Below are positions 7,292-57,789 of a DNA stretch of 64,000 nt, piece by piece; position 1 is the first letter of the stretch; the number at the start of each line of letters is the position of its first letter. Origin of the DNA: Bryum argenteum (lineage: Eukaryota > Streptophyta > Bryopsida > Bryales > Bryaceae); assembly GCA_037043015.1 (NCBI GenBank), contig CM073328.1:18139495-18203494 (forward strand), in the 5' to 3' direction. Below the pieces are notes generated by a model. It was given only the letters and a program-made list of their open reading frames with translations. It was not told the DNA's origin and ran no database searches. The translations under genes were made by a program, and so were the position numbers.

Positions 7292-7384
7292 AGAGTCACG
7301 GAACTGCAATTGCTCTTTTCCTCGCAGCAAGGCCCATCACCATCTCCGCCCCAGCTACGCGCGTCACCTGCCTCGCCAGCAGAG

Positions 7385-16140: not shown

Positions 16141-16399
16141 TATGCAACGCTTCTACAAGAAGCTCGCTGGTCGTGAACGGCACCTACTTCGTTGACCCCC
16201 TAACTCTAACCCTGAGGTTGACAGCTTACGTGCTCATCACTCCCGGCAAGTGCCGCAATAGCCACCCTGGCTGGTACGTGAACGGCTGGTTGGTGCGGAC
16301 GAATGCTCCTACAACCTCGACAATACCTACCTCTTTAATATAGAACAACATTTTCACACATTGTCGGACAAGGTGACAAAATGAAGACTTATTTGATAA

Positions 16400-34662: not shown

Positions 34663-37600
34663 TAGGTACAATGTCGCGCAGGGTTGCTAGTAGGTGAGCC
34701 TAGGAGTGTGAGCTTGTGAGCTTGCGAGCATATGAACCCAAATATTTACTAGGAAATAAAAGGTGGATTGGACCTATAACCGTGGGTGGCAAATCATAAA
34801 GTTTATAAGTTGTAACTAATTTTTTTGAAATACACGTTGAATATTTTTATATGGGTACCCTAAATCCGTGGAAATCATGTTAGAAATTTTGTGCATGAAA
34901 GAAAAAAAGTGTCCTAAGACCGTGGTTTGGTTACTATTTAGTACTCATGTATTACAATAACAAAGAATACAACCATATGATTAAGTTATGTATTATGGTT
35001 TCAAAAAAGATTATAAAATTTTGTTGTTGTATTAGACAAGGCCAATTAAATTAGGGCTGACAGCACTCTATGCAAGAAAAACAGAAATATTTAAGTGCAA
35101 ATCAATTCATGAACTAACAAGTGAATGACAATGTTAAAGAAAATATTTCATACAAATAAGACCAATACAAAGAGAAAAATATTTGATACGGACCTACTAA
35201 ACTCAGAAGAAAATAACAAATCAACCTAATAGTATGAATAATTAATATTAAATACCAAAAAACCAAACTAAACATGAGAGTGATTGAGAATGTAGCCTGC
35301 TTCTCTAATCACAAAATCAAATCCAAAACATTTCAAATACTTGGACTAGAACTACCTTCACTTCCTGAACCTCCTATTATCTTCTTCCACCTCTAAATCA
35401 ATAAACGTCTCAACAATAGGATTGAAACGTTTACGATAGGAAAGAACTGGAGAAGGTGCGTTTACAAATTCTTGTGCAAGATTCTCAGCGTAAGAAGGTA
35501 GGTAAAAATCTTTTGGAGGACTAATAAACATGTCCTTTGTAAGTATCCGTTTCTTTCTTAAAGATGAACCTCTGCAGAAAATACAAGATATTATGTAAGT
35601 TTAATATTCAAGAATAAAAATGTATCATATAAATAATAAGTTAACATCATTAACATTGATTATCAAACTTACGCACAAAGAGCAATACGCTTCTGCTTCT
35701 TTTGTGGAGGAGGTTCCTGAAAAGAAAGGCGTGTTGGCATAGAAACAGATGGGAGGATTTCTTGTTTTTCAAATCCCTTGAGAAGGCCATTGAAGATTTT
35801 AATGTCTTTTTCCAGAGCAATGATATGACGACCAGTGTCATGACACGCTAAAACTGAGGCACCTGTATAAAATGAACATCAAGATATAAATTAAAGTGTT
35901 AAAAGAAAAAGAAGAAAATCAACATATAAAAAATTATTAGTTGGGAAAAAAAAGCAATACCTGTATTGGTTTGCCAGTCAAGAACAATGTCTCCTTCTTT
36001 TGTAAGAGACTCAATAAGAATCTGCATGAACTTAGGATGCTTCTCACGGGCCCCTCTCCACGGAATTGTATCATTCATGAGTTGACACTTTGAGTTTGTG
36101 AAGTTCTGAAGGTAGCCATCATTTTCGAGAGAAAACCCCAAGTCCAACCAAAAACTTGCTTCTTGAATAGAGGCTTTGGAACCAGTGCGAGTATAAACCT
36201 TGATGAAAAATCGCAAAGTCTACAAAACAAAAAATTGTAAGTATTAGAAATACAAATATTGAAGTAAAATGACATAAGAATAATAGAAGTTTATGGAATG
36301 AATTTTGCACCTTTTGTGAACGATCAACCGAAGAAAAAAAATGGAGGTTATTTAGACCCCACCAATCGCGTAGCAGCTCAAACTCAAAAGTATAAGCCCA
36401 ATTTCGCAAATCAAGTAACAAAGTAGGATCATTTGGATGAACTACAAGCAACATTGCATTGTCATGCAAGTTTGCAGCAGCAAATGAAAATAAGTACTCA
36501 AAGTAACCTTCTGAGCGCTTGTTCCATTCAGGTACCGTAGTGCTTGAGACAAGTGGCACTGGCAGGTTTTCTGGTACATCCGCTATAATGAGGTCAAGTC
36601 CGGAATGATTTGCGGTCATGTTTGATGTACCATGACGTCGCGATGTACGAACCTAAAAAGACAACAATTATTAGCCACAATTTCTAAATAATGTAGATTG
36701 CAATACATAAAGTACAAAGAGGTGATAAGTAACTCACATCCGATATAAATTTCTGGATGCGCTCGTAAATAGGATCATGAACACCGTTCATTTGCTTGAA
36801 CTCAATAAGTTCCTCCAAGTCTGCATTTTCAAGAAGAGTGGAAGAACGAATTGTACTAGAAGAAGTAAGAGTTGTAGTGGGTACAGTCACTTTGCGCTTG
36901 GATACCTCAGAGCCTAAAGTAGGTTGTAAAGGTACTGAAACAATGGCTAACTGACCAGCTGTTGAGCATCCTACCGTAGCACTTGCTGGAGAGTCTCGTG
37001 AGGTTGCCTTTGTTGTAGAGCGAGTTGCAACGGCAGGAGATGTGTTGGTTGTCTTCTTGGATCGTTTTCATTTAGGTTGCTCCTCGAAATCTTCATTCTC
37101 CACATCACATAGAATAGTGTTCAAGTTCTCCAAATGAAGATCCGGAATTTCGTCAAAAGATTGAACAAGGCTTTCCTCGCCAAGAGGAATAAATCCGTCC
37201 ACACAATCAAGATACCACCCTCCTGCTCGTAGATGAGAAACAGGAAATTTCCGAGATTGAAAAGGTGTATACATGAATTCTTCGGATGTAGAATCCAAGA
37301 AAGTTTGAAGAATGGGTGGGACGAATTCTGCTGAAAGAGCATTCTTTGTCACGATTTCACGATAAAAATACCTGAATTAATATCGACATGAAACACTTAG
37401 AATTTTAAAATAAAAGAAAAAGAAAAATTAATTGTTTCTTAAGGTGATGCCATATCATACCGGTACATCACACGATTGATAGCCATGTCTCCACCCTAAA
37501 ATGTCGTAAGAACTGTAGACTTTGCAAACTTTGCAATCAATGGCAAAAAAGCTTTGTCCCACAGAATAATATGCCACCGATCAACAAATTCAGCAGGGCT

Positions 37601-39321
37601 AAAAAGACCTCCAGAAACGTCATTCTGAATGGGACGAACACAACTTTTTTCCTTCTCGACAAACCCAGTTACAATCGCCTCTTCCAACTGCAATAAATCA
37701 AAACTTTATTAAAAACCAAAGTATTATAAGTGACAAAATAATCGAACATAAAAATTAAATAAAAACTCACTTGTGCCCAAAAGGATGCTTTGATAAGCCA
37801 TGTATCAAGAGTTGTATCCTTAAGAGATTTTGTATCAGGAAATTTGAAACTTCTTCCGAGCATCCTTAGAAGAGTTCCACCACTTCAACCATCGTGTCTT
37901 ATATTTTGGTTCAACTCGAGTGGTTACTATCTTCTGTAACTTCTCAATAGTCATTTCCGGATTGGTCATGTGTGCAAAATGATAATTTATCTACACAAAT
38001 AACACATTCAGAAAACACTAAGTTAGAACTATATATATATATAACCAAGTACATATAAATCAGAGAATTGCAAATGAATAAACAAATACCTCATCAAAGA
38101 AGGCGTCTCCGTTGTCTTTGTTAGCCACCGCTAGGTATTTGTCAAAAGCTTTTGATCGCAGATTTTTCACCTTTAACTTGGAAGCATCTGTCATTGCTGT
38201 CCAAACTCCAGGGGTTGTTCTTTCATTCACAGGTGTATTCTCCCGATACTTTGCAGCAGCTTCATCAGCAGCTGCAGAAATCTCTCTCTGCAACAGTAGT
38301 ACATGACTTATAGTATCAAAAAATGAAAAAATACAATTATAGTCATGAAAGAAAGAGGAAATGAATGGAAAAATTGTACCTTGTAAAGAAATGCAACAAA
38401 AATATCAATTGTCAATGGATACCATGTTGGGTTTTTTTCTTTTTCTTTTTTACAAATGGCGTACTCTTCTTTTGAAATAAGGTCTTTAAAGTCCTCAAGC
38501 TTCAAATTACCAAACGTACGAATACGTTGTAATCTGGATGTTAAGTCGGCCTTCACATGATCGTTTTCGGTAGACCTTCACAAACAATACAAAAAATTAT
38601 TAAACAATAACCACGTGAATAATAATTCAATTAGATTTATAATACATAAACAAGTACAAAATCATACCAATTGATATCGCTCATGGCATTGAGAAGAATG
38701 CCACTTTGTTTCCGTGCATCTAGAACGATGCAATCAACACTTATATGCCATGCAGGATCGCCCCCATGATGTTTGTTGATGTGGCAAAACCATGCAGACA
38801 GTCGATGGTTTCCCTCATACACAAAAAACATTTTGTTGCTGAAAACCTTGAGATCTTCATCTGCAGCTAGAAAGTTTTCGAATGCATCGTTTGCTGCTTT
38901 CCAATGGGCACTCCAAGATGCACGAATTTCTTCTGTAACCGTCAACTCGGCATCTCCACCATTGTATATGGATACATAGAGGACTCGATCTCCATCTCGA
39001 TATCCCATAACGAAATCGTTCTCCAAGCGCTGCACGTTAACTTCGCTAATAGGACGTACAAGAGGAAGACACCGCAAACGACATAATGGAATAACAAATT
39101 GTGATTTAGATGAAGGCTTGATTCGCAACCGATTGATTACATTGATCGAATCCACCTTCTGTATATTGCGGAGGGCAATCTCACTCGCATCAGGGTCATT
39201 TTCTGTGTCTGGGCACTTGGGTATATGAAGGATTGGACCTCCATCCTAACAAAACATAACAAAACACCACAACATAAGGATAATTAGTACTAAAAATTAG
39301 AATGATCAAATCATGAGAAGA

Positions 39322-39657
39322 GGCTTTCGTCAACGAAAGGCTCTACGACATGTAAAATAAAATTGGCACAAATCCCATAAAAAAATAACTCATCAAAAAC
39401 CAACTTCAAACAAACCTCACATAGATAGCCTTTCGTTGACGAAAGGCTCTACGACATGTAAAATAAAATTGGCACAAATGCCATAAAAAAATAACTCATT
39501 AAAAACCAACTTCAAACAAACCTCACATAGATAGCCTTTCGTTAACGAAAGGCTCTACAACATGTAATTCAATCAACCCAATGACTTACACATTCATTTA
39601 CCTCAAATTAAAATGCCACAAAACACACAGAAAGTATTGCATTTCGTCAACGAAAGC
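39322..39657. repeat. Palindrome array GCCTTTCGT-N2-ACGAAAGGC, cluster 1, with 106-bp tandem units
   Basis: Four sites start at 39322, 39428, 39534 and 39639. The arms are GCCTTTCGT/ACGAAAGGC around CA, TG or TA; the copy at 39534 (GCCTTTCGTTAACGAAAGGC) is a perfect 20-bp palindrome. The first three are spaced exactly 106 bp apart as part of a tandem repeat whose inter-palindrome sequence is nearly identical. The fourth is a partial match. Confidence 0.85.
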
Positions 39658-40169
39658 ACATATGCATAAGAATGAAACAATGTTGATGTTACAAAATTTG
39701 ACAACTAAATGGAAGTCACGAAAGGAAAGAGAGTAGCGAGATAGATGTGCTGTCGAACAGTCTCGGTCGAAGTTCCAAGGAAAGAAAGTTCGCTGCGTCT
39801 TGTTCGCTGGGAGATGTCAGTTGGAAGGGGTGAAGGGATAATTGTAACTGCTCTTGCGAAAGCCAGCTGAACCAGCTGATGTCCTAGACAAACTCTCGCA
39901 CGCTCTGGATGATATCCCCTGTTCGATTGACACCATCGCTCATGCTCTTACTGTAGCCTAACTTCGATCGAGACTTGGACTGAGATCCTACGGGCGCAGT
40001 GACGGAAGCTATTAGGACCTTGACAAAAAAGTGGACATGCACTTGGCGTGCACTTGGCCATCCAATTGCTAAACGAAGCGAGTCTCGTCGGAAAGCTTTG
40101 TCACTGCGACTTCTTCATTTCTCTCTGAGCACTGGAGCATCCCGTCGAGTTTCAGGTAATGTCTTTACT

Positions 40170-40950
40170 ATATATCTGGTCGATCTTCGCAGCATGCAAT
40201 CGCTCTGCTTCGGAAGTAGACATCTCATTCAAGTGATTCTGTTCATGCAGGAGCTAGGTGCTCATCTTTGGATGCAGTCACCTATTTCTCGCATCCAATG
40301 AACTTGTGATTGTTTGGGATCCTCAAGTAGGCAAACGAGAATCCTTCAAAACAAGCAACTCAAACTTGCCCGTAGTGTGACAAGAGGTCTAATTGATCGT
40401 GAGTGAAGCCAAGCTCTAATGAGAAGAAGTACATGCCCTCCTAACCTTCTTTGAATGTCTTTTTATTTTGGAACTTTACCTGACCGATCTGAATCGCAAG
40501 CATTGCCAACTCAAGCACGAGTTCTAAAGATACGATCCATTGCCGTGCGAGGAGATAGATCTCGTTTTGAAGTATCCTCCAACACGAACTTTGAGTGGGG
40601 AGGAAAAAGACGACTTCTATAGAAACTCGGGTTTTATTTAATGTCCGAAAACCGAGTTCTTACCAAGTTCCTACGATGTGTCGACCGGAGTGATGCCCAG
40701 TCGGTTTTAGATCTAAGCGAAGAGCAACTCGGGTTTACGTAGAAGGCGGGTAGCTCTTGAGTAATTAAACTTTCTAATACTACAACTAATCCAAATTGTA
40801 ATCACGTGTTCGTTTCTCGATATAGCGAGCTCTTTGTTTCTATCGGGAAGCCAAGCGGTGTGGATTTGATGAGACGATGGGCTCTCATAGATATTGCAGA
40901 TGCCTTAGAGCTTCTATCCCCTGTTTTTGAGAGCGAAGAGGTACACTACT
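40170..40950 (+). pseudogene. VPS34: Captured fragment of host VPS34 (class III PI3-kinase)
   Basis: Plus-strand pieces match the C2/helical region of plant VPS34 in correct order. FMQELGAHLWMQSP and ELVIVWDPQVGK lie around 40240-40335, NKQLKLARSVTRGLIDRE near 40350-40405, LKYPPTRTLSGEEKD near 40566-40612, LMSENRVLTKFLRCVDRSDA near 40640-40698, and LMRRWALIDIADALELLSPV near 40865-40926. Pieces are separated by non-coding stretches where introns would lie (about 40420-40535 and 40700-40830), so the capture was from genomic DNA. Frame changes and a stop make it non-coding. It lies antisense in intron 1 of the partner gene, between the two palindrome clusters. Confidence 0.75.
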
Positions 40951-41035
40951 CCTCCAAGAACTGCATTTCACGATGTACTTTTCCTTCTTCATATCGCAGA
41001 GGAGCTTTGCAAATCACCCAGCACACATTGAAAGA

Positions 41036-41179
41036 GCCTTTCGTCAACGAAAGGCTCCAGATTCGACCAGCATTTCGATTCGACCAGCATTTCCATTCGA
41101 CCAGCCTTTCGTCAACGAAAGGCTCCAGATTCGACCATCCTTTCGACCAGATTCGACCAGCCTTTTGTCAACGAAAGGC
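41036..41179. repeat. Palindrome array GCCTTTCGTCAACGAAAGGC, cluster 2
   Basis: Three sites at 41036-41055, 41104-41123 and 41160-41179 (the last with one change, GCCTTTTGT). They are joined by repeats of CCAGATTCGACCAGC and related units. The core is the same as in cluster 1, 1.4 kb away, on the other side of the VPS34 fragment. Confidence 0.85.
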
Positions 41180-41358
41180 TCGAGATTCGACCATCTTGTA
41201 CTAGAAATTTGTTCATGACTACTAACCTTGGGTGCTGCAGCTTCTCTCTCCACTTCATGCTCCTCTTGAGTCTCACTCGGTGTCATAACTACGCTTGCCA
41301 TAACCACGCTATCTTCACCTTCCATCTCTTTCCTCTCCTTCAATAAGCACACACTCAA

Positions 41359-41490
41359 ATCTCAAATCTCAAAACTCAAAACTCAAAACTAGAAACTCAA
41401 AACCCAAAACAAGATCAAGAAGTGAACAAGCTTCACCTCACTTTCAATCCCTAAACCCTAAATTCCTAAACCCTAAAGCCGCCAAGCCGC
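41359..41490 (-). promoter_or_regulatory. Putative leader/promoter of the ParB/methyltransferase-like gene
   Basis: Contains a run of CTCAAAA-type repeats (41358-41415) and three telo-box-like CCTAAACCCTAAA units (about 41450-41480), typical of plant leaders. The equivalent position of element 2 (near 53118-53130) also has TTAAACCCTAA. Confidence 0.4.
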
Positions 41491-41870
41491 CAATCCTAGA
41501 TCTAATATGAAAATTAGGTTAATTGAGAAAGTATGGTTGGTGGATGGGGTTTGGGAGGTGCTTAGGAAAGTGGATGAGTACGTAAGTGCGTTAATGGAAT
41601 ATCATCTAATTGAGCCAATTCTTTTTATTTTATTTTTTAATTCATTAGAATACAAGAATATAACACATGAGCATTTTGTAGAATATTTACTAAGATAATA
41701 ATTTGCTTTGACTTTCCAATGCAAGCAGTACTTACAAACTAAACAATAGTGATATTACATTTCAATGAAATAAAATCTCAATCCATAAATAAAATGTATC
41801 ATACTTTTCCATACTTTAAGCCAACTTCAAGTATCATCGCTTTAAATTTTTAGAAAACTTTGATTATTTA

Positions 41871-42598
41871 TTTAACACTTAATAAATAAAGTCTCTTCTA
41901 CCTTTGCGTGTGACAGATGAGCCCTTTTCTGGCAAGGCAATAACTTCGTTGTTGTTGCTTCGTTAGTCTTGAACTGTTCATCCTTATTCACCTCGTCATT
42001 ATCCGACTCTTCCATATCGTACTCTTGGGCGCATATAATTCCGCCACCTCCCTTTACAAAAGTAAAGGTGCAGTACAAAATACACAGAAACTTTAATAAT
42101 TTTCATAAAGCTACCATTTCTTTGAAAACAATCACTTCACTAAATGTTTCACTTCATGTACACAAGATCTAAGAATACATTGTCAATATGACATGCAATT
42201 TACTGAATAAGAAGACTAATTACAGTAGCTATGGACCCGCCTGCCGTCTCGTCATCAGAATCACTCTCTTCTACAAAGCTCTGTGGCGCACGTTCGATTT
42301 CCGAACTCATTGTTGACAATCTTTTAAATCGCACTCCCTTCTCCTCCTCTTCACTTTCCTCAACAACCGCGATATCTAGTGTACCACTCTTAAAATTTCT
42401 ACTTGATCTAATCCTCTTGTCGTCAATCTCACATACCGTTCTTATAGTCTTCCCACAAATCTCACTCAAAACTGCCTTCTTCCTAAACTCCCTACGCCTC
42501 CTCTCATTAGAGCCACTAAAACTAGTGCCACCTCTTCGTTTCTTCCGCTTCTGTGTTGCTTCCGTCGATTGATTAACAATATGACTACCCTCTTTCAT
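41871..42598 (-). CDS. Small basic/acidic protein of MULE element 1
   Basis: Unrecognised. ATG at 42598; the first exon encodes a lysine/arginine-rich start (TQKRKKRRGGTSFSG, NERRRREFRKKAVL) and a glutamate/aspartate-rich end (VVEESEEEEKGV, FVEESDSDDETAGGS). It can stop at 42200 or splice near 42226 to an acidic segment at about 42046-41875 (YDMEESDNDEVNKDEQF). The charge pattern suggests a nuclear DNA-binding accessory protein. A counterpart with similar charge order lies at the same place in element 2. The exon structure is unsure. Confidence 0.4.
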
Positions 42599-43207
42599 GT
42601 GTCCACAATAGCTTTCACAACGACGGCTAAGGCTGCGCTAAGTGGTGCCTGCAAGAAGCATTTGAGAATGAGTGAAACTCCAAGCTCCAATACATTCTAC
42701 CACATTCGCAATTGAACACCGTTACTCAGATATTGTCATCCGCGTTAATTGTCAGAAAACGAGTACGGAATTTCCGCGGAACAACATGCGGCTATGTAAT
42801 TTGAATTTCAAAAAATTAATTCTATATCTAGATATTGTCAGTAACTTGACGGCTACTCTAAAATCGTATTGGCGTCTTACCAAAAATATATTTTTGGCGT
42901 TATATTCTTTGTTTATAATATGATTGTTGTCATCTCACATGTTACCACAGATACGCATGCCTACTTCTAATTCTCCTTACTTTATTTAATGATAAACAAC
43001 CATTATTAATAACATATACTTCACCTAAGGTTTGGTTTGCGCCGCTTTCTATTTTTGTTAGAATCTAATAAAATACCACTCACTTTTTTAAAGTGCATGC
43101 AATAATTCCGATATTTTTCCTACTTAACTTCCATTGTTGATAGTTGTTTCTTAAGCTTATGTTATGCTCTCTTTCCGCCTGTTTACAACATCTGTTCGGT
43201 TTACAAT

Positions 43208-46200
43208 ATGGCTTTTGTTCGAGCATTTGGTCACCCAATCCCCCTTGTTTTCCAAGTTGGAGAACAAGGTCGTGCTAGAGTGTCTGCCCAAATCCTACAC
43301 GTGCGCTTCGGATTACAACTCTCTTCAATTTTTATTGAAGAATAGGTGTTCTCTGAATCTGGTGTTGTAGATAGAATTATTTTGCAACTGAGTTGTCATG
43401 ACGAAGATGAACAATACTGGCTTCTTCCAAGCGGAAGATATAGGGCGTTTGGTCTAAGTGTATCAAGAGTGAAACAAGAGTATTATGGTGATGCAGTGGA
43501 ATTGTCAAGTGACTCATCACAAGGTCAAATTCCTAACGATGTAGTTCATTCTCGCGATGTCCCTTTACCTACAACTATACGTTCTGTTAGTGATCAGTCT
43601 AATTCTGTTCATACTCTGGGCCAGTCTTCAGGTTATTCTAACATTTCTCGGCCTCCATGTCATCCTAATACTCGAGAACCCCCGAGTATTATGCAATACT
43701 TGAGACGTCTCTCTTCTCTTCCAGGTTCTAGAACTGAACTTGCGTCTATTGACTATGACAAGATTACGTATCATAAAGTCCAATTTCTCCCTCCAGTATA
43801 CAATGGAGATGTCATCTTTGAGTTGCCTCCAAGTCATTCTTCCATACCTGGTTCAAGGAATCAAATGGATGGTATGGATAAGCGATATGATGGTCATGCG
43901 TGGTGTCGAACTATAACAACTAATATTCACAACAAAGAAGGACTAACTTTTAGAAAGTCTTCTTGTGTCGGTCATTTGGTCTGTGAGAATGATGCATGCG
44001 ATTTCTTATCAAGAGCGGGAAAGAAGAATGAAACAGAGTGGTCCGCCAAACCAACACTCCTTTTAAAAAGTCGATCAACGCGTCCTCTTACATCTACTTT
44101 AGTTTGCAAAGTTTGCAAAGTTCCTCCAACATGTCTTAGTTTACGTGACGACGGTCGTATATACTACGTCCTTAGTACAAACGATATGACGAGGGCGTGC
44201 ATCCATTTAGGGGTGCATCTCCATCCGGTGTCTACCGGTATTTGTCGTGAGTCTGTGAAAGACAATATCCAGTCTAATTGCTAAAGAAGTCGCAAAAACA
44301 CCAATCTGCGAAGAATTCGATATAGCTATGGGCGCAAGTAAAAGTTCTTAGATAAGTACCTCATTCACAGTGGATCTGGAGCAAAAGAGATGCTTCAAGG
44401 GAAAGACTTGGAGAATGTGTTGGATAAGTTTGAGTACCTCAGTTCCCCAAATTTGAGAAACACGATTTCAATGAATAGAGGCGGGGGCAAGGGCAGTGCA
44501 TTTGATAACATTCTTGCAATGAAGAGGTACAGTACACTTGAGTACATACAAAGTAGTGTATTCCCGGGCCAAGGGAAGGACAAGGTTTACTTATTCAAAA
44601 TGTTGGAAGATGGTCCGGGCAGTGGTGTCAACCTTGTTGAATGCATGCAACCAGGAGGTGATCTTCAGAACACTTGGCTCATGTTTGACCATGTCAAACG
44701 TGTTCAGGACTGGACTACAATGGCGTGTCATGTGTATGACACAAAATATTGCAAAGTTATGACGATTGCTGTTTGTGACATGCAATCGAAAGACACTAAG
44801 GTTCAATGTATCATGTGGAGGGAGCTCAATGAAGTTATGCAACGTCACGGTGTGAAGAAAACCAATTTCAAGGGATTCATGGCGGACAGTGCACAAGCTA
44901 ATTGGAACGCAGTCCGCATTATTTACGGGAGTGGCGATCCAAAGATACCTATGGAGGGCAGAGAGCGAACATGCCTTTTGCATTGGACCACGTCGCTTAT
45001 TCGGCATACTCAAAAGTACATCAAGCCCAACATGCAGGAGCAACACAACCGCCTTTGTAAGCAATATAAGAATTCGAAGACACTTGACGATGCAGAGTCA
45101 AAGTACCTAGCTATTCGGGCGTGGTAGCTTTCATCAGGAGCTGCATCTGAAGAATCTATCCGAGATTTAAATCTTTGGCCAGCATTCTGGCACTTTCGTT
45201 ACCGTCAATGGGGAGGCTTTATGCAAATGGTACAATCTTCATCTTTTGTTTAGATATTCATATGGTTGCATAATTGCATATATATACAGTGATATGCAAT
45301 ATTCATGTTAAATTTTTGTGTATGTGTTGATGCAGGGACGTAGCCTTGAAGAATTGGCAGACATGCCCTCCTGTAACTTGTCAGAAACTGTTCACAACAA
45401 GTGGTTGCAACAGTCAGGGAATCGTGGCAATGACCTCTATGTGGCCACTTGCGACGATATGATCTGAGCAGTAATGCAAATGACCAACTACAGGGCGTAC
45501 CAGAAGAAGGGCAATCTGTCAGGTACGGGTCCATCGAAGCAGGAACTAAAGTTACGTGCAGCAACACGTTTTGGTGACCCAAAAAAAATTGCTGAAGCAG
45601 TTGGCCAACTTCCGGGTGCTGAGGTTGCCAATACTCGGGTTCCTCATCTGGAGGGGGAAGAAATCTTTGGTAGCACAAAAAGGAAACTAGATCTTCCGCC
45701 CGGTAATGATGGACACTCACATAGACCTGACAAGGTAAACTTTTCACAACCCCGGATACAAACTAGGTCTGCAGCATCTCATAGAGAATTGAGAGAAGGG
45801 TCTACACTTCTTACAATACACGAAGATAATCCTCATGTGACGACAGCATTAGAGTCTGATTGTGATGTGTCACAGTGGCATATAGCTAGGATCTCTCACA
45901 AATCGAGCTGTAAATGTCATGCCCAACAAGCATCGACAAATATTAAGTGTAGTGCTCGTATTGCAAAGGGTTCAAAGGGAACCCCTGCACCAACATACAG
46001 AGGTAGAAAAACTCAGTACGGTGGAAACAAGGAGATTGTTACCGATTTTTGGTTCTGTCCAGACGATATTGAGCGTTGTGTAAAGGGTAGTAAACGACCT
46101 TGGGTTCTAGATTGGCCTCATGTTCCGGAAGTATGGCCTGTTTTGAGTGGCACTCACTTGACGCGCCATGAAACTCTTCTTCTACAAGAGGCAGGGTTTA

Positions 46201-46727
46201 CACTTCAAGATCACAAAGAGATGTCACCTCGACGTATGTTCTCATTGGCCAACTGTATTGACGCACATGTCTTTAATCATCCAAGCCCGGTAAATCCGGA
46301 CATTTTTCCAACAACTCGGAATAGTAAGTCCATTCGCCGCAACGGACGCGCTCCAACTGCTGAACACCGGAATAAGTGGGAAAGCGCACGCAACATCAAA
46401 GGTACCATCACAAGTGTGACACTTCTTCCATTTCCAGGTCTTGGTGCAATGATCTCGTTGGAATCTGAATGAGATCCAAACAAAAAGGTTTATCGAATCT
46501 CTATCAGCCACTTCCCAGAGTGTACGTGTCCAGATTTCCAAAACATGGCTGTGTCATCGATTGGAAAACGTGGGCAATATGTTAATTGTAAACATATTTA
46601 TTACATTTTTCGCTATTTTTGCAAGATGAATTGTGAGGATGACACATTCATCCACTACCCAAGCTTGAGTTTCAACGAAGTGAAGCAACTCCTTCTACGC
46701 GCCCAAATCATCATAGAGAATATTTAG
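43208..46727 (+). pseudogene. Mutator-like (MULE) transposase with SWIM zinc finger, element 1
   Basis: Cut-and-paste transposase relic. Start MAFVRAFGHPIPLVF at 43208, chosen by alignment to copy 2. In order: a Cys/His-rich DNA-binding region (SSCVGHLVCENDACDF, CKVCKVPPTCLS, RACIHLGVHLHP), the DDE core with FKGFMADSAQANWNAVR and the MULE C-x2-H signature in RTCLLHWTT, an intron of about 105 bp (45231-45335), then a long C-terminal part. It ends in a SWIM finger: ECTCPDFQ...GQYVNCKHIYY (C-x-C...C-x-H). Damage: stops at 43343, 45125, 45465 and 46469 and a frame change around 44.27-44.36 kb. Closely related in layout to copy 2 but well diverged in sequence, so the two are separate lineages. Confidence 0.8.
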
Positions 46728-47308
46728 ATTTATTTCATAGGCTTGAAATTGTAGCCTTATTTCTTGTATTGCAGCTATAGCCTTAGAGTCATAGCCTTAC
46801 CTCTTATATACTTAGCAACTAAATGCTTAGATTTTATTATTACATGTTGAGGAGATCTACTCCTTGATTTTTTTCTATAAGTATGAGTATGTGATATTCT
46901 CTTTAATATTGACATAGCAAGTATGTCACTTGTCTCCTACATTATCCTTGTATTTCCACGGTTTTAGGTACTACATTTGAGGTGAGTGGATCTGTAAAAT
47001 GAAGCATTTAGCAAATTATTACAATCATTACAATCAGTTATCTTATTTTATTTCTACAAAATTTGTCTACTTCCACGGTTATAGGTACAACCATGACCCA
47101 CGGTTTTAGGGTATATTTCTACTTAAAATAATAAATTTATCTATTGTCAACATAATAAATTTATCTAATCATGATATACATTTTTATTCACTATAAATAT
47201 AATTATAAAAACATATTTTTTCCCTCAAGCTCACAAAGTCATGCTCATTGCTCGCAAGCTCGCATTTCTAGGCTCACTTTCTAGCGTCGTTGCAATGTCG
47301 CGTACCTA

Positions 47309-47981
47309 AAAATAGACAATTCGTAAATGCATGCATTAGGAAGAAGAAGAGGGAAGTGGAGAGAAGAGGGAGTGTTGGTGAGTGAGAGAGGAAGAGAGGA
47401 GCGCAAGACGCCGACCGGGATGTCGACTGATGTCGATCGGTCGATCCGTCGATCTATAGGTCGCTCAAATCGTGGACCAAACGACCGATCGACCGCGCGA
47501 CCGACCGAGCGACATCAATCGGTCGGTCGCTCGGTCGGTCCATATCAAATCGTGGGAGTTCAAAATGATTTGTCTTTTCATGGTATTAGCATTAGAGGTA
47601 TATAGAATGATCAATGAGGCTTATAATGGATAGATATACACAAAAACTCAATGTTTTATAAAATTATTGAAAAGTATGATAATAAAATGAGCAACTTTGA
47701 TATAAAGGGCCGGTGAGAGAGACCTTTCTTTTGACTTGCACTTCAAAAAAATGAACTAAAGTGATAATTATAATACGGGGCAATTGTTGTGACTTTTTAA
47801 AAAATCATGGTAGTTACAACTACACAAGTATTCCCAAGTCTATTGTGACCATTGATAACTTCTCATCTTTTTCCCTCCCATATTGACATATAAATATAGA
47901 TAATGATAACTTTTTGTTGATTGGAATTAAGCAAGTAAATATGGGTGACACTCTCACCCTCATTGTTACAAAATTTTGATG
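47309..47981. repeat. Spacer between the two MULE elements, with CGGTCGGT-rich inverted repeats
   Basis: From 47415 to 47545 the sequence is built from GATCGGTCGA, CGACCGACCG and GTCGATC units. ACCGACCGAGCGAC is followed about a dozen bases later by its exact inverse GTCGCTCGGTCGGT. A purine-rich block (GAAGAAGAGGGAAGTGGAGA) lies just before. The rest is AT-rich. Confidence 0.55.
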
Positions 47982-48378
47982 GTGGGCACTTCGATGAGCT
48001 AAGCGAGAGGGGTGCTAAGTCTTAAGCCATAAGCAATGAGCAATGAGCAATAAACTCTTGAGCAGTAACGCATAGTATTGTAACCAACTATGGACCTATG
48101 ACCGTGTAAAATGATTATATTACAAAATGATGTCCTAGTGTAAGAGCCAAAAATTTCATATAGAAATACATTCAAGACAGTAATTATTTGAGAAGGTAGC
48201 CTATAACCGTGGTTTGGTATATGGGTTCAATTTTTTAATAAGATTGATCAAAATTTGAATTTACATACATTAGTATCACTGTGTATATATGCAATCATAT
48301 ATCTATGAAAATCGTGATAAACATAAACATATACTGAAATTAATAAGAAATCAAAGCAAAATGTGCACATATGAAATA

Positions 48379-51300
48379 CTACATAGATATGTTGGAGTCA
48401 GAACTACCCTCAACTGAAGAGGTAGTGAAGGTATTGTCCTCCTCAGCATGTATGTCTATGTAACTATGCACTTTAGGATTATAAGTACGTCACTTCCAAA
48501 CTAAAGGAGGTGAGGGGGCTTCTGCTAAAGCCATAGCCATATCTTGTGCATAACAAGGTAAAGTAAAGGTATCATGGGGACTGGTTGAGAGGGCCTCCGA
48601 GAGGGCCTCCGATGAAGCTCTGAAACACAATGTGACGTCCAATATTGTAACAAGCACGTACCAAAGCTCTTGAAAACGAAAACCAAAAGCATATATAAGA
48701 AGATAAAGAAACTGGTTCACTATAAGTAAATAAAAACTGAAGATAAAATAAAGAATGACCTGTAGATGCAAACCAATCTAGAATAATATCTCCAGGCTTT
48801 GAAAGTACTTCAATCAAGCCTTGCATGAATGATAAATCTTTCTCCCGAGGACCTCTCCATGGAACTAATCCATTCATAAGCTGAGATTTTTCAGATGTGA
48901 AGTTGAGAATGCAATCACATTTCTCAAGCCTTGTAACAGTTGCAGAGAAATCAGAACTCTCTTGGAATGAAAATCGTGATAAAATCGGTCCACCACGGAT
49001 GTATAGCTTGATGCAGAATCAATTGGTCTAAAAAAAAATTGGAAGTTGAATAAAGTTTTAGTCCTAAATAGAAGAAGATTGGAAAAAAATGTATCGTGAA
49101 AGATATACAATATAATACCTCACTTGTCTTGTCCGTTAGAGAAGTAAAGCGAAGATCTTGGACACCCCACCATTCTTTCTTCAAAACAAAGTTGAACTCC
49201 GAGGTCCACTCAAGAATATCAGCAGACATGGTGGAATCAAAGCAATGAAATTGAAGTAGGACAGCATCATCGTGAAGAAATGCATCTGCAAATGCAAAGA
49301 TTGACCCTACACAATTCTTGTCTATGTTGTTCCAAGACGGGATAATTGAGGGCGGTGAAGAGATAGAAGGGACTGGTAAGCCTTCAGGTATGTCTGCTAT
49401 GAGTAAGTCAATTCCCTTATGAGGGCAAACTTTAGAGCACACTCGACGTGTGCGGCCTGCTCCAACCTGTTATTCAAAAGAATAAAGTCATATATTTCTA
49501 CAAAGTAGGAGAAATACTGAAAAATAAATGAAGTACAACAAGCACAAGGTAGAAGCTTACCACATCTATAAATCTATGAAGTGCTATCCAACGAGGATCT
49601 CTCCCTTCAACTCCGTTAGCTCCCTGCAAAGTGAGATCCAACATAGACACGTTATGAATGAAGTTGTATACGGAAGTAGATGAAGTATTTGTAGAAGTAC
49701 TTGCACCATGAGGTTGCAAGTGTTTCTTCATCTTTTGCAGATGCAGCTGAATGACCTGCGTCAAAATATGAGCACTGTATTGCGTGCCATCAAAATCGTG
49801 AGTAGCAGGACCAGACACCTCAAATGGTGTTGGACGAGGAATTGAAGACAGTAGGACATTTGCGGAGGAAGCTCTCTTCCTGGTAGGCCATGTCTTTCTC
49901 TCTTTTGATGGTGCTTGAGCAACTAGATCCGTATCTTCATCTTCGGCTTCCTCTTTCGTAAGAGGCATGAGAACTCCACCATTGATGTTTGTCCTCTCAT
50001 TAACCTCCTCAAGAGGTGTAAATGTGGGAGAACAATCCAGGTACCAACAACGGGCAACCAGATCATTGTCGTTGAACTTCTTCTGTTGGGCAAGTGTGTA
50101 AAAGCAAATGGAGGAGGTCTTATTTAGAAATGATGAGAAGTACGCAGGCATGGAATTCTTGCTAATGGCTTTCTTTCCAATGAGCTCCCTTTTGATGTAT
50201 CTGAAGAAATTAAAGAAAATACTGAAGTCAATGTACATAGAGAAATAGTAAGATCATTAATTTTGAAATGGATAGAAAAGATAGTATAGAGCAATAGAAT
50301 TTATCTTACCTGCATAAAACTTGCTCAACAACCGAAGCTGTGCCTGGATATTTTGTAAACTTGATTTCTTTCTTGTACACAGGTTCTGCTCTTGGATAAA
50401 AAAAAGGCAAAAATGCCTTATCCCATAGTAGTATCCGGTAGGTCTCAACATATTGAGATGGAGTTTTGATTCCACTGGAGGCTTTCCAGTCAATCGGTTC
50501 CAACTTCTCACGAATTTTTTCAAATTCTTGAAGAAGTTGATCTTCAAGCTGCAATTACAAAAGTACATGTTTGAGTATAAAAGTAAGACAATAAAACTAT
50601 AATGAATTAAAGTTGAATGTAAAAATTACCTCGGCCTAAAAAGATGCCTTGATTATCCACGTTGCAAGTGGAATTTTGGAATCTCGTGTTGGAAACTTGT
50701 ACGCTGCAGGTATTGTCGGGGGAGCATTCCACCATGTCAACCAGAGTGCTTTGAATCATAGTTGGACAGGTGTTGTTGCAATTAATCGCAGTTTGTCAAT
50801 AGTCATTTCTGGCTTAGAATACAAACTGTAATGTTTTTTAATCTGCAAAAGTAAGAAAATATATGAGATTTATATTAGGAAATGAAGTTGATTGTCAAAA
50901 AAACGTGGGAAACAAACCTTTGTGAATAAAGCTTCTTCATTATTTGGATTAGCTACTACAAGGTACTTATCAAAGTCCTTGTTTTGAATGGAATCAACAA
51001 GGTCGGTTGCAGCTTTTGTCATCATGTCCCAAACTCCGTGAGGATTTTGTTGATCCTTGGAAGTCTTCTCGTAATATTCACAGGAAGCTGCATCCGATGC
51101 ACCTGCGATCTCTCTCTGCACAGCAGAATTAAATAGTCATGAAATAAAAACTCAAATTTAAGAATTTGAATAAATCTCATGAAATAGGAGAAAGTAAGAA
51201 ACTTACACGATAAAGAAAAGCGATGAAGACTTTCTGAGTCAATGGATACCAAGTTGGGACCGTGACATTTCGGTTTTTCGATTTCTCACAGGATTTGTAC

Positions 51301-53041
51301 TCCTCTTCTGTAAGTAGATTTTTGAAATCAGTAAGCTTGAGTCCTCCAAAGGATCGGATCCGTTGAACTCTTGTTGGAAGGCTGGTCTTTACATGGTCAC
51401 TTTCAGTGGACCTGCACAAATAAAATGATAATTGATGAAGTGAAAGATACAAAATACTTGTAAGAAAAAAACAATTACAAAGTAGAAATAAACTTACCAA
51501 TTGATGTCATTCATTGCATTCAAAACATCTCGAGCATTCTCTCTTGGATCGATAATAAACGTATCAACAGAATAGTGTCAATTCTGTTCATGTGCATGGT
51601 GCATGTTGATGTGCCTCCACCAAGCTCTGTGGCGGTGATTGTCATCCCATACTTACAACATCTTACAGTGAAGATCTTGCTGATGCACTTGCCTAGAGAG
51701 GAGCTCTTCAAACCTCTCATTTGCCTCGATCCAGTATGGATCCCATGTCTCCATTTACTCCTCCGTAATGGCTTTCGATTTACCTCTGTAATCATACGCA
51801 GAAACAAAGAGAACACGGTTGCCCATACGATAACCATGCACAAACTCATTCTCGAATTTCTGAATCTCGACCTTACTAACCGGGCGTACTTTTGGCATGG
51901 AAATCATGCGACAGAGAGGTACCGGAATTCGAGCTAAAGTTAAGCTCGAAAGAAGAGCACGATTATCCTTCTTTTGTGTTTTTCGGAGAAGTAACTCTCC
52001 CTCAAGTACGTTGTCAATTCCATCGGGAACTTCTGGTTGAGGAAGGACCTCCGTAGTTTCAACACATTTGGCAGGGGTAATGGCGTGAAGTGTTGATAAT
52101 GGCCTATGAGTTGAACTCACCTGCAAATATAAAGTACAGTCAGAAATTGCTCACATAATGAAAGTCGTACTTGTAAAAAAAATAATTATATAAATGATAT
52201 TAACATATCAAAGAATGAACATATATAGCGCACGACAATTGACCCCTCAACTAACAGAAGTTTTTTTGCAATTATAGGTGGGATCAAGAAAAGCTTGCTA
52301 TCCGAAGCAAGCTCTGCTTGCGGCCGCTAGACCGCTGCAGAACTTGTAAGTTGCAGAGCTTGTGAGCATGTTAGTTGAGGGCCGCTTACAAGCGGACCAA
52401 GAACTAATTCTGCAAAACAACATTACTTCGTTACAAAAAGGTTTGAATCCCTATTACGTGGACAAGCCGCGTGCACGCGGACCGTCTCAAAAACCAGAAT
52501 GATCGCAATTTGGATAGTCCGCGTGCACGCGGACCGTCCCGACATCCGTCTCAAAAACCAGAATGTTCGCAATTTCGACAGTCCGCGTTCACGCGGACCA
52601 TCCCGACGTCAATTCCACAAACTAAACAACATTTCCCGGTGCAAAACGAACATCACTTAAAACGCAGAATTACACTAAACCCCCAAAATCGTGAGGAATG
52701 GAGGAAGCCGAACTACTGTCCGCGCACACGCGGACAAGAAACAAGATTTCTAAATACCCCATTTCTACTAAGTTCAGAAATGCTAAACAAGCTGTAATCC
52801 AGAAATCTCACCGCTTATGGTGTTGGAGAGATGATCTCCAGGTCGTCATTGCTTTCTTGGACCGTTTCTTCTGCCCCATCATGAGCTCCTCGACCTCCTC
52901 GTCCTCGACTATCTCGCGCAGCCCTTCCGCGGCCACCTCGTCCTCTAAGTCTTTCGCCGCCACCATCAGCAACTCCTCCACTGATTGCTTTAATCGCCAT
53001 CTCCAGGTTGTTCTCCATTTACAACGAATGCAAACCAGCAA
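48379..53041 (-). pseudogene. ParB-like / methyltransferase-like protein gene, element 2
   Basis: Homologue of the gene at 35358-41358 with the same exon order. Clear exons: 51498-52120 (ParB-like; LCRMISMPKVRPVSKVEIQ then DDNHRHRAWWRHI), 51207-51411, 50918-51115, about 50632-50845, 50311-50550, 49561-50200, 49121-49470 (LLIADIPEGLPVP), about 48765-49027 (WRGPREKDLSFM, GDIILDWFASTG), and 48379 to about 48690 (ACYNIGRHIVFQ). Exon 1 probably lies within 52808-53041, where one frame is acidic then basic (REIVEDEEVEELMMGQKKRS). The DIPE motif again lacks the aromatic of DPPY. There are three in-frame stops in the ParB exon, further stops in exon 5, a deletion with a duplicated GAGGGCCTCC in the last exon, and a stop before the conserved tail. 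Not functional here. Confidence 0.55.
52465..52735. repeat. Palindrome array GTCCGCGTGCACGCGGAC in intron 1
   Basis: Sites at 52465-52482 (first two bases differ), 52517-52534 (perfect 18-bp palindrome), 52581-52598 and 52718-52735. The first three sit in near-tandem units sharing TCTCAAAAACCAGAATG and TCGCAATTT. A related CCGCTTACAAGCGG lies at about 52382-52395. The array is in the same place as the GCCTTTCGT palindromes of element 1 but with unrelated sequence. Confidence 0.85.
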
Positions 53042-53226
53042 AATAAGAGCTCAACACACGTAAACCAACAAAAAAAAAAAGCCCCAAACAAAACTAACAA
53101 CTTGCTTGGACAAAAACCTTAAACCCTAATGCCATGACGGCTACTACCCCTTTCAATCCTAAATGTTATTTACTTTACTAACTCCTGAAATTCTCCACTT
53201 TCCTATTTCTTCAAACTAATTCAGAT

Positions 53227-53540
53227 TCAAGTTACTAATACCTTTGATTCACTCTCGCCATCGCTCTCACCAAGTGACGGTTGATCATCTAAACTCCGCA
53301 TTCTAAGAAGTCGATACAGCTGCAATGCAGGCGCAACTGATAGAACTTGGGTTTCTTTGAAAAGTTCTACAACGCAATCTTCAAATGTTAAAGCACGAAC
53401 ACTCTCTACTACATTCTCGTCTCTACGACTTCTAACCCTTCTTAGCCGTGATTTCAAAAGCTCTCTTCTACTACTAAAGCGGCGTGCACTCCGCTTTTTT
53501 TTTCTACTCCCGTCTCTCGGTGCCGACAGAGGTGTTCAAA
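53227..53540 (-). CDS. Small basic/acidic protein of MULE element 2 (partial)
   Basis: Unrecognised. The minus-strand frame reads a basic stretch (SRKKKRSARRFSSRRELLKS, LRRVRSRRDENVVE), a middle VRALTFEDCVVELFKETQVL, and an acidic end (SLGESDGESESK) before a stop at 53227 or a GT donor just before it. No convincing ATG at the left of the basic part. Position and charge order match the small gene of element 1. Confidence 0.35.
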
Positions 53541-54061
53541 TGTCTAGCATTTGGACTGGTTGGCGTCTAGTTTAAACTTCCAGACATGTTCTGTTCGAAC
53601 TTCTCTTCTAATACAAATACTTAAATTTTTTTCATTGCCACAACATTTTCATCAATGCGCACGCCACCTCTACCCTTTTAATTTCAAACATCCATAAACG
53701 CCTTAATTGCATTTACGAAACCATATCTTCCATTTTGTATAGTATATACCCTTTTGTAATAAAACCAAATATTTTTTATTTGATCTTCTTATTACATGAT
53801 TATTATTCAAATACTTTGTCCGTGCCGTCAATACAACTACCAAGATATGTAAGGCATTAATTCTTGGCAACTCTAAAAACGACTACAATATAATGTCCAC
53901 TACGTTATTTTAAAAAACTCACCTACTTTAAGTACGTTAAGATTATTCTTAATCTTTTTGAATTCTTTCTACTCATGCAACTCCGAGTGATAAACAATCT
54001 ATTAATACTCAAACTACCTTCTCTCATCATTCTCTTCTAACCCTTTCATGGTCTTCTCAAA

Positions 54062-57000
54062 ATGGCTTCCTTCTGTCTTCGTGGTGTAGGACTATCTTTT
54101 ACAGTCCCTTTAGGTGTAGATGGAAAGGTTATTGTTCATGAACACATGCTTGAGGCAAAATTTAATTTGCTTCCTGGATCTTTGTTCGTAGAAAAGATCT
54201 TGTTTAATGAGTCCGGTGTTTCGATAGGAACTTTGCTCGAAAACAAAACTACTGATTCCACTGGAGGATTTTGGATTGTTTCATCTGGCATGTACTTTGT
54301 CTTCGGTAGGGAGTTTGAGACTCCAATGTTACATTCAACAACTTCCTCTGTCCACTTACCGACTTCGGTTTCTGTGAGAATAGAACCTTCGGACAATATC
54401 ATCACTTTGCTCAGCCACTCCAATGACGAATCATTTCCTACAGTGCATTTTTCTGTACCTACTAACAATCCTTCTTCCAGTAGAATTCCTACAATACAAC
54501 TCCCATCGAAGCCTACTTCTTCTCATCCTTCTTCTTTGTCTAGTGGGCGTCCACACTTACATCATGTTCTCTCCTCAAGTGCAATCACTATGATGGAAGC
54601 GTTGGTTCTAACCTCCAAAAGGAGACGATCCAAATTTGAACTTAGTGGTGTAGATTTCACTAACATTCGAGTCGAAGAAGTTAGTTATTTGCCACAACGT
54701 TATGATGGGAACATAGTCTTTATCCTACCCTCATTGCCTCAAGGAGTTCCACAAACATATGGTAAAGGTTTAGATGGGATGGACAAGCAACACGACGGAC
54801 ATGCATGATGCACAACAAGGATAACTCACATTCAAAATGATTACAACATATCGTTTCGTCGATCCTCCTGCGTTGGTCAGCTACAGTGCTCTAATAAAGC
54901 TTGTGAGTACATGATGCGAAACTCGGGGCAATGCAATACTACGCAATGGACTGGCCAGACACCAACACGATTTGAAGCTGGACAAAATCTGCTTCCAAAA
55001 TCAACGTTGCAATGCAAGGTCTGCCATACTCCTCATGTTTGCCTTCAGACATGCAATGCTGTAATCTTCTATGTGACATCACCTACAATAGAGAGTCGCG
55101 CATGTATCCACTTAGGCGAGCATAAGCACCCTGTGGCTGATGGAATTTGTAGGGAGACAATAGATTTAGTATATCAGTGCATGGCAAAAGAGGTCTCTAG
55201 AACGCCCAACACTACGAACTCTGCTATAATGATTGGTGCAAGTCGAGCGTTTTTAGAAAACTTTCTTTTCAAAAGATTCACACCTGGAGAAAAGCGACCA
55301 TCTTTAGAAAGTATTGTGGATAAGTATGAAACACTAGCCTCTCCCAATTGCAGAAATTATATTGTAGGTGCAAAGAGACTCGTTCGAAGTGATCGTGTGC
55401 CTATTGATAGCATACAAGCTTTGAAGGTGAATAATCCTTTCATTTTTGTTCACGAGAATAGATTCCCTGGCCAAACAAAAAACAAAGTTTTCATCTTTAA
55501 GATGTCCGTTCAACTTGAAGGTAGTGGTTTTGACCTTATAAAGCGCATGCAACATGGAAGAGACTTACAAGATTCGTGGGTCATGTTTGATCGTGTTAAG
55601 CGACTAAATGATTGGACGACTATGGGTTGCCATGTCTATGACAACAAATATTGCAAGGTCATGACAATTGCATGTTGTGACATGTAATCAGAAGATGCTA
55701 GTGCTCAAATTCTATTTTGGCAGAATTTAAACTTTGTGATGCAAGAGCACGGTGTTTTGAGTATCAACTTCAAAGGCTTTATGGCAAATAGTGCTCAAAC
55801 TAATTGGATTGCAGTGAGGAAGGTTGATGGAAGAGGGGACGGCAATACTCTTATGAAAGACAAGGAGCAAACCTGTCTTTATCATTGGTCTGCTAACTTG
55901 GATAAGTATACGCAGAAGTATATCAAACCGTCCATGCAAGCTCATCATAAGCAACTATGTCAAGCCTACAAGAATGCAAAGAGTTTCGAGGAAGCTGAAA
56001 CTCAATTCCACGTCATCAAAAATTGGTGGTTATTATTTGGTGCAGCTATTGAAGATGGTGTGGCACACTTACAAGAGTGGTTTGGATTCTGGCACTTTCG
56101 ATACAAGCAATGGAGTGGCAAATTTCAAATGGTGAGTTTAGTATATCAGATGGTAATGAAATTATAGTTCTTGATTCATACAATTATATTATTTTTTCTT
56201 GAATGAAGTGTTCCCATTTGAATAACAAAACACTTTTTTTTTGGAGGACCTAACTTTGGAAGAGATAGCAAAGGTTCCTACATGCAACCTTGCAGAGACT
56301 GTCCATAGTACAATGGAGAGGGCATCAGGAAACAAGATGACTTGTCCTTATGAGGCCACCATACACGATATTATTCGTGCTTTCATGCAGATAACAAACT
56401 ACAGATCGTGGGTGAAGGGTGGAAAAGGAGGGACTGGACCAAGCGACACAGCCCTAAAATTCAAAGCAGCAATGCGAAGTGGTGATCCCAATCTTTTGGC
56501 TGAAGTAATGAAGACTATTCCAGGTGCCGAAGACTTGCCCCTTACAAACTTTGGCTTGGAAGGAGCAGAGATATTTGGCTCTACAAAGAGGAAATCTGAC
56601 TTACCTCGTGGATCAGAGTTTGACTCTCATCGTCCGGATAAGGTAAATTACTCGGTACCTCGTCCTTCTTCACGGGCAACACGAGCACGTATTGAAGAGT
56701 CTCTGAATACACCGTTATATGAGGTGACCCATGTGACGGGTGTCCATGAGAGTGACTGTGATCCTAATCAATGGCACATAGCTCGCACCAATCCAAAATC
56801 CCAGGTGAAATGTCAAGCTATGCAGGCTGCTTCTGGACAGGCATGTGAGGCACAAATCAACAAGGGCCGCCAAGCAACTTGCGCTCCAACTTATCGTGGC
56901 CTGAAGAAAGCTTACGGAAAAGACACCTTGGAGCTTACGGAGTTTGGGTTCTGTCCCGATAATATTAAGCGATGCATTATGGGAAAAAATAATTTTTTTG

Positions 57001-57617: not shown

Positions 57618-57681
57618 TTTATTTTCATACATAGTGTTACTTTAATATATGTATCGTTTATAGAATATAAATATTCAAATA

Positions 57682-57789
57682 TCACATGTTTTTGTCAACT
57701 ACAGTATTCTATTTTATTCACATGTTTTTGTCAACTACAGTATTCTATTTTATTCACATGTTTTTGTCAACTACAGTATTCTATTTGAT
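57682..57789. repeat. Three 36-bp tandem repeats
   Basis: The unit starting TCACATGTTTTTGTCAACTA and ending in a T-rich half is repeated three times almost perfectly, just past the transposase gene of element 2. The short frame with MFLSTTVFYFIH repeats comes from it and is not a gene. Confidence 0.9.

Follow-up and report, generated by a model that had tools for sequence, protein, structure and literature searches.

In the genome of Bryum argenteum, two adjacent DNA transposons each hold an accessory gene whose product is predicted to keep the fold of a beta-class DNA methyltransferase, with an acidic residue in place of the catalytic aromatic. The two elements, A and then B, lie in a 64,000-nucleotide stretch of assembly GCA_037043015.1 (contig CM073328.1, positions 18,139,495 to 18,203,494 of the forward strand), the whole of which we call the window. 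In the amplified lineages that we sampled, the catalytic motif IV now reads D-x-P-[E/D]. Since the active-site aromatic was changed and has been kept changed, the accessory protein seems suited to recognition of the element's DNA rather than to methylation of the usual kind. The gene is intron-rich and encodes a protein of roughly 900–1130 residues, judging from hand-joined exons (two models, one of 1134 residues and one of 896 that excludes its C-terminal exon). A ParB-like box lies in the N-terminal part and the methyltransferase fold near the C-terminus.

The methyltransferase fold and its motif IV

Nine representatives of the family align across the three exons that encode the domain (M1, M2 and M3), the other eight being 40–47% identical to gene A, the accessory gene of element A. 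Every one of the nine matches the Pfam model PF01555 at E ≤ 10 (best 3.5e-7) and, likewise, PHROG 3008 (best 4.9e-11); gene A by itself matches PF01555 at E 7.5e-5 and 23.2 bits, under the cut-off of 26.7. A search of the PDB with the nine-member profile returned DpnA (2e-7) and CcrM (2.8e-6, over residues 22–251), which we take to be beta-class N6-adenine methyltransferases. Beta-class DNA amino-methyltransferases have motif IV ahead of motifs X and I, and the alignment to CcrM follows this permuted order. We conclude that the C-terminal domain is, as predicted from its sequence, a methyltransferase fold of the beta class (CcrM/DpnA-like), a resemblance beyond chance. An earlier sequence-only reading of the window had named an N6/N4 methyltransferase here, and the PF01555, PHROG 3008 and PDB-profile matches, all significant, bear it out.

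If the fold is kept, what has become of the active site? The catalytic motif IV of N6_N4 methyltransferases is [DNS]PP[YFW], and the ADPPYNL of CcrM aligns to ADVPENL of gene A. We examined 22 M1 loci, found with acidic-type queries and including close copies; two do not cover motif IV. In the 20 that do, the first position is D at all loci but one, which has N (19 to 1), and the fourth is E at 17 loci and D at the remaining three; the canonical motif is absent from every one, the aromatic being replaced by E or D. Across the 258.8-Mb genome (25 contigs, with the window on contig C8) the acidic form of the motif, A-D-x-P-[E/D]-x-L-x-V-P written as a DNA pattern, matches exactly at 419 sites, against one for a backward control. 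The equivalent pattern with F or Y has one match (control 0), a count from a pattern that was modelled on acidic copies and omits W, and that is therefore blind to aromatic copies in other contexts, such as the D-T-P-F lineage described below. Among 100 acidic-pattern matches listed, 44 fall inside known M1 hits and three more near ParB-like hits. The sequence-only reading had supposed that the module marks or recognises the transposon's own DNA; the aromatic missing from 20/20 loci, and the motif count of 419 to 1, tell against marking, whereas recognition may still hold. Elsewhere in the domain, motif I keeps its D and TG, the first glycine of the DPFxGxG loop is kept in four of 14 loci with a complete motif, and all nine aligned rows have the E and the D that follow GRHI.A.

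Does an aromatic form persist? A low-copy paralogue was found at three places in the same genome, with M1 98–100% identical among them and motif IV reading IDTPFDS:

G000:C4:20498341-20511299 (L041, L223, L224, L225), D-T-P-F paralogue of the module, with divergent transposase

Two of the places lie about 18 kb apart on contig C4 and are transcribed away from each other. At one of the three the ParB-like exon reads WDGNHRLVAW and is 47% identical to that of gene A, and the divergent transposase there is 58% identical in its core (of L225 only the transposase end was checked). The hand-joined domain of this lineage clears the PF01555 cut-off at 31.9 bits. In viral contigs the methyltransferase profile found 11 loci, of which ten cover motif IV and all ten keep the aromatic: nine read DPPY (two of them in identical sequences) and one ADIPYNL. 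The latter keeps its aromatic, so the neighbouring change of P to I or V is not in itself the point. Because the D-T-P-F lineage and the viral ADIPYNL both keep it, the aromatic looks ancestral, and the simplest history on these alignments would be an aromatic ancestor and, in the lineage that went on to multiply, replacement of its stacking residue by an acidic one. No related loci were found with the methyltransferase profile in the genome contigs of the related-locus search, and a motif scan of open reading frames at the 11 viral loci found no ParB box. One viral contig (L048, 3748-5320) has tandem methyltransferase genes, one with ADIPYNL and one with TSPPYN.

The ParB-like part

What is the N-terminal part of the protein? 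Box II of ParB proteins is of the type GERR/DGxHR..A. The accessory protein has a box V-x-[ED]GNHR-x2-AW, in which G-N-H-R and W are invariant in 38 aligned sequences, and its agreement with box II is at the level of the motif only. PF02195 (ParBc) has no match anywhere in the genome, and Pfam and PDB profile searches with the ParB-like part gave no ParB match. PHROG 1033, a ‘ParB-like partition protein’, recurs weakly, for 4/8 members at E ≤ 10 (best 0.0018) and, in a larger set, for 5/38 at E ≤ 0.1 (best 0.014). Compared profile to profile, viral V-x-DGNHR proteins reached about 95%, a value that we discount because the viral set was chosen by that very motif. With the EGNHR box masked the comparison scored 0.2%, and 16 of 60 column shuffles did equally well or better; a canonical GERRWRAA ParB compared with the ParB-like profile scored 0.1%.

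Searches for relatives went as follows. Among 1339 candidates the ParB-like exon profile matched 615 proteins at E ≤ 10, and the 120 listed all lack Pfam domains and are named only ‘hypothetical protein’. Three relatives of the ParB-like exon, 64% identical (P0067, P0083 and P0085), come from contigs of 123–675 kb and have no Pfam domain. The profile found no related loci in viral contigs, one ParB-like representative had no match in phage records, and full-length searches with a hand-spliced protein A and with a two-row alignment returned no homologue. The N-terminal part is nonetheless probably ParB, to judge by one box in a fitting place. Thus the ParB half of the fusion named by the sequence-only reading stands as far as the GNHR box and the weak recurrence of PHROG 1033 carry it; it found no match to PF02195 or to a ParB profile in Pfam or PDB, and failed the masked comparison.

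Elements, genes and their spread

Two minus-strand genes do lie where they had been placed, A at 41325..35361 and B at 53018..about 48614, their exon peptides being located with flanking sequence. The motifs attributed to them are there too: RPISEVNVQRLENDF/RPVSKVEIQKFENEF, GNHRLSAW, IIADVPE/LIADIPE, IPWRG/VPWRG.REK, GDIVLDW/GDIILDW...TG and GRHI. DNHRHRAW of gene B is present as well, but in an exon that can be read only through TAA, TAA and TGA stops. The exons are as follows.

Gene A (minus strand)
41227..41325, exon 1, MEGEDSVV...AAAPK, donor AAG|gttagt
38668..39245, ParB-like exon, box EGNHRLSAW
38380..38571, exon 3, RTFGNLKLEDFKDLIS..., start approximate
38090..38287, exon 4
37499..37687, middle exon, LEEAIVTGF..., end decayed and approximate
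36738..37355, linker exon, in-frame TGA near 37068-37070, start approximate
36311..36652, methyltransferase exon M1, motif IV position IIADVPENL
35959..36219, methyltransferase exon M2, IPWRGAREK...GDIVLDW...TG
35672..35863, methyltransferase exon M3, GASVLAC...GRHIIALEKD
35361..35570, C-terminal exon

Gene B (minus strand)
52818..53018, possible first exon
51497..52054, ParB-like exon, VWDDNHRHRAW, three internal stops
51207..51407, exon 3
50918..51115, exon 4
49561..50187, linker exon
49119..49457, methyltransferase exon M1, LIADIPEGL
48758..49018, methyltransferase exon M2, VPWRGPREK...GDIILDWFASTG
48614..48667, remnant of M3, ALVRACYNIGRHIVFQSF

The two genes share an intron after a conserved INW, with the codon split TG|G and followed by GTATGA or GTAAGT. 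The in-frame TGA of gene A falls between ...EEQPK and KRSKK. Both copies in the window are pseudogenes; elsewhere in the genome numerous exon copies have no internal stop.

How firmly is the module tied to its transposons? First-look searches gave 865–1181 candidates per exon, of which the best 150 at most were scored, and each searched exon recurs in at least 150 scored places. Among 187 distinct ParB-like places listed, 93 have a methyltransferase exon 2–6 kb downstream on the same strand and none has one upstream. This recurrence, with the 93-to-0 ordering, places the genes beyond chance. The same-strand distance from the ParB-like exon to M1 is 2400–2800 bp in 88 of 95 pairs. Taking 132 distinct transposase loci, we find an exon of the module (ParB-like or methyltransferase) 3–20 kb upstream in divergent orientation at no fewer than 84, while the other three geometries account for 4, 3 and 3. 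The figure of 84/132 is a lower bound because the lists hold the best matches only; it draws on 38 of 150 rows of one exon list, whose other rows mostly but not all overlap a second list in use, and on part of the rows of a further list, which can only reduce the counts (an earlier tally used 143 of the 150 rows of that further list). The proposed pairing of module and transposase thus holds, in one geometry, at the sampled loci. A host gene was rejected as an explanation on account of the linkage to transposases, chance open reading frames were rejected too, and capture without function was rejected on the comparison of copies that follows.

We measured the ratio of nonsynonymous to synonymous divergence (dN/dS) between copies, in a set that contains pseudogenes and in which pairs with dS >1.5 are saturated. 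For the ParB-like exon the medians in rising dS bins are 0.57 (dS <0.05), 0.15, 0.43, 0.09 and 0.07 (dS 0.8–1.5); for M1 they are 0.60, 0.34 and 0.24, then 0.46 at dS 0.8–1.5. Named ParB-like pairs gave 0.05, 0.07, 0.08, 0.13, 0.14, 0.27, 0.28, 0.28, 0.36 and 0.54; named M1 pairs gave 0.08, 0.10, 0.14, 0.14, 0.19, 0.23, 0.42, 0.59, 0.89 and 1.51; named M2 pairs lay between 0.11 and 0.33, with one at 1.04. The past selection that the sequence-only reading had read from shared motifs finds support in signs of purifying selection between copies, clearest in the ParB-like exon. In our reading the lineage was under selection while it transposed, and individual copies decayed afterwards.

The elements, their ends and their transposases are as follows.

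34679..47292, element A, 12,614 bp, accessory gene (minus strand) and transposase (plus strand) divergent, ends CAACGACGCTAG... / CAGGGTTGCTAG...
34669..34678, left target-site duplication of element A, 10 bp, CGCGACATTG on the minus strand
47293..47302, right target-site duplication of element A, 10 bp
34680..34730, left-hand subterminal cluster of GTGAGC-type motifs in element A, with cores at 34694, 34708 and 34716
47229..47292, right-hand subterminal cluster of GTGAGC-type motifs in element A, with cores at 47229 and 47272
43346..46727, plus strand, element A transposase, read as several open stretches with a FMADSAQANWNAVR...CLLHW core, a SWIM-like end and stops
48007..58225, element B, 10,219 bp, terminal bases 23/30 identical as inverted repeats
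47998..48006, left direct repeat of element B, 9 bp, GCTAAGCGA
58226..58234, right direct repeat of element B, 9 bp, GCTAAGCGA
54041..57599, plus strand, transposase of element B

In both elements the plus-strand transposase diverges from the minus-strand accessory gene. The ends of element A are common to two sister copies with perfect duplications of their own, AGTAGTTAGA (10 bp) and TAGCCACAC (9 bp); the 10-bp duplication belongs to L027+L028, and that of L025+L026 is 9 bp, or up to 12 counting shared end bases. A copy of the main subfamily (L023+L024) has a 9-bp duplication. At two further copies, where the aligned ends are short, 10-bp repeats GAGCTAAGGG and TCCTTCGCAT were seen by eye. 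For element B the runner-up pair of ends has an inverted-repeat identity of only 16/30, against the 23/30 of the pair chosen. The seven elements studied for their ends, two of them chosen for nearness to element A, and a further ten loci were selected for carrying the ParB-like exon and so speak only of elements that have the gene. Where L009 and L010 were joined, a second methyltransferase module lies on the opposite strand at about 15292-16295, just past the first element, which suggests that these transposons cluster or nest.

Are these Mutator-like elements (MULEs), as had been supposed? MULE target duplications measure 8–11 bp, and those of the examined elements, at 9–10 bp, fall in this range. 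By eye the transposase has a D...D...C-x2-H pattern and, at its end, a SWIM-like CxC...CxH, both in keeping with a MULE; that of element A has two TAA stops. Against Pfam it has no MULE or DBD_Tnp_Mut match and reaches only SWIM, below the cut-off (E 0.12 and 0.43), and Pfam together with a PDB profile gave no MULE or other convincing match. The label is thus upheld by the duplications and the patterns seen by eye, and is unsupported by any Pfam MULE model.

The ends carry short repeats. Element A has five GTGAGC in 600 bp of ends and none in its interior, and six other copies have 3–9 at their ends against 0.05–0.38 expected. The repeats vary by subfamily: GAGCTTG in A, GAGCGGT in the main group and AATGAGC in B. 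The transposase, the accessory protein or both could recognise them as sites.

Other features of the window and genome may be noted here. An eL14 gene at 7271-7789 has seven PDB matches at E 3e-55 to 2e-51, one from wheat germ and others with names of plant type, after which the values fall to 8e-37, as suits a plant genome. By eye, long open reading frames at 18539-20161 look like the decayed remains of a transposase or integrase from a different family, and 28441-30684 holds a sugar-transporter-like gene, apparently an ordinary host gene. The light-harvesting domain PF00504 has 90 matches in the genome, including tandem series confined to profile positions 31-161 (C5 8.16-8.41 Mb, C5 14.73-14.76 Mb, C2 25.06-25.09 Mb and C3 19.59 Mb), which by position are presumably ELIP-like; an association is known between large expansions of ELIP genes and desiccation tolerance.

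Possible roles and known systems

What might such a protein do? We propose, tentatively and with rather less than even confidence in the explanation as a whole, that it is a self-recognition factor without standard catalysis that binds the end repeats. The methyltransferase fold would be mainly a DNA-binding platform, without standard N6-adenine or N4-cytosine catalysis, and the ParB-like part would aid loading or spreading of the protein. It would bind the short GTGAGC-type repeats clustered at the element ends and, once there, might either shield the element from host silencing, as VANC does, or help the transposase to pair the ends. How it arose is more doubtful still. One possible course is that a phage-type methyltransferase and a ParB-like loader became a conserved, non-methylating self-recognition module, that the aromatic was replaced by E or D first and the lineage only then multiplied to about 400 motif copies, and that the active-looking D-T-P-F form survives at three places.

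Several points weigh against this proposal. The ParB assignment is unproven, there being no Pfam or PDB profile match and the masked comparison having failed. Purifying selection is well supported in the ParB-like exon but less evident in the methyltransferase exons, for the M2 medians in rising dS bins are 0.76, 0.38 and 0.46 and single recent pairs of methyltransferase exons stand at 0.89, 1.04 and 1.51. The motif count, for its part, does not see aromatic copies outside the acidic-copy context, the D-T-P-F lineage among them. The end motifs may be sites of the transposase only. Binding of S-adenosylmethionine (SAM) may persist, since motif I is partly kept, and some other chemistry might be served by the acidic residue.

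Could the protein instead be an active DNA methyltransferase, one that binds the element, writes N6-methyladenine (6mA) or N4-methylcytosine (4mC) and so marks the DNA it belongs to, as has been proposed for transposons of algae? Its fold and motif order match CcrM and DpnA, parts of the SAM loop are kept, there is selection between copies and the D-T-P-F lineage could be active; moreover, in the accessible text of one report, an Ectocarpus protein of like layout is predicted to make 4mC or 6mA (PMC12477816). With E or D for the aromatic at every covering locus, a motif count so lopsided, and the first glycine of motif I lost in 10 of 14 complete loci, we consider an active writer improbable. 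The METTL14 precedent (PMC5023411, as far as its available text goes) and the presence of the D-T-P-F lineage in the same genome would fit an acidic pseudo-methyltransferase that takes part in catalysis only when paired with a host protein or a low-copy D-T-P-F form, as METTL14 does with METTL3; with that lineage at only three places, such a heterodimer is very unlikely.

The fixed divergent pairing with the transposase, and GTGAGC-type clusters at both ends, are what one would expect of a transposition cofactor that binds the subterminal repeats and aids synapsis, excision or targeting, with no silencing role; but the repeats could be the transposase's own sites, and we regard this role as unlikely. 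We likewise regard it as unlikely that the N-terminal domain is an unrelated DNA- or protein-binding domain with an EGNHR box by chance, an explanation compatible with any of those above. It would account for the want of a Pfam ParBc or PDB-profile match and for a masked test at the level of shuffles. It accords poorly with a box whose G-N-H-R and W do not vary in 38 sequences, with the weak recurrence of PHROG 1033, and with an algal transposon whose reported layout of two domains is the same (PMC12477816, in the text available).

How, then, does the module compare with known systems? In the accessible parts of the Ectocarpus report, the transposon Sola1-1_Ec32 encodes a protein of 1104 residues, ParB-like and N4/N6 methyltransferase, on the strand opposite to its transposase; its authors suggest that proteins of this kind may attach to and modify the transposon that encodes them, and similar genes are described in brown, green and red algal transposons, the green and red cases by citation (PMC12477816). 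The accessory gene resembles these in its two domains (with reserve as to ParB), in its strand and in lying inside a DNA transposon. It differs, comparing by description only, in its plant host, in 9–10-bp duplications that are not those of Sola, in its hundreds of motif copies and in a motif IV of D-x-P-E/D. In phages a ParB-CTPase fold is fused to an N6_N4 methyltransferase, such fusions being enriched in prophages, according to the portion of the source at hand (PMC12704722). The domain pairing is equal; yet no viral relative of the ParB-like exon was found, and the viral methyltransferases keep the aromatic. The likeness to CcrM and DpnA extends over the whole domain, with DPPY changed to D-x-P-E/D and DPFxGxG to DWxxxTG or similar.

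Two further parallels may be drawn as analogies, not as homology. METTL14, in the available text, has EPPL in place of the DPPW of METTL3 and keeps an inactive fold for substrate binding (PMC5023411); it likewise lacks the catalytic aromatic, but acts on RNA, and here the fold is CcrM/DpnA-like, of the beta class, with E or D at position 4. VANC proteins are plant-transposon factors that bind repeated motifs of their own element and lift silencing; VANC21 of Arabidopsis VANDAL, in the part of the source available, binds a short motif repeated in the non-coding parts of its element (PMC5735166). Both are accessory genes of plant DNA transposons. VANC has DUF1985/DUF287, whereas the parts scanned here, which lie between the first and the last exon, had no match to either. 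Full-text literature searches for the domain combination, which left most subscription papers outside their scope, showed no further report among the titles and abstracts listed. Since algal transposon reports exist, the kind of gene is already known; the plant host, the type of transposon and the acidic motif look new, as far as the accessible text of those reports allows. A high-copy acidic family beside a low-copy aromatic lineage in one genome makes writing versus reading directly testable, and the module may be a counterpart, in another plant, of the VANC anti-silencing systems.

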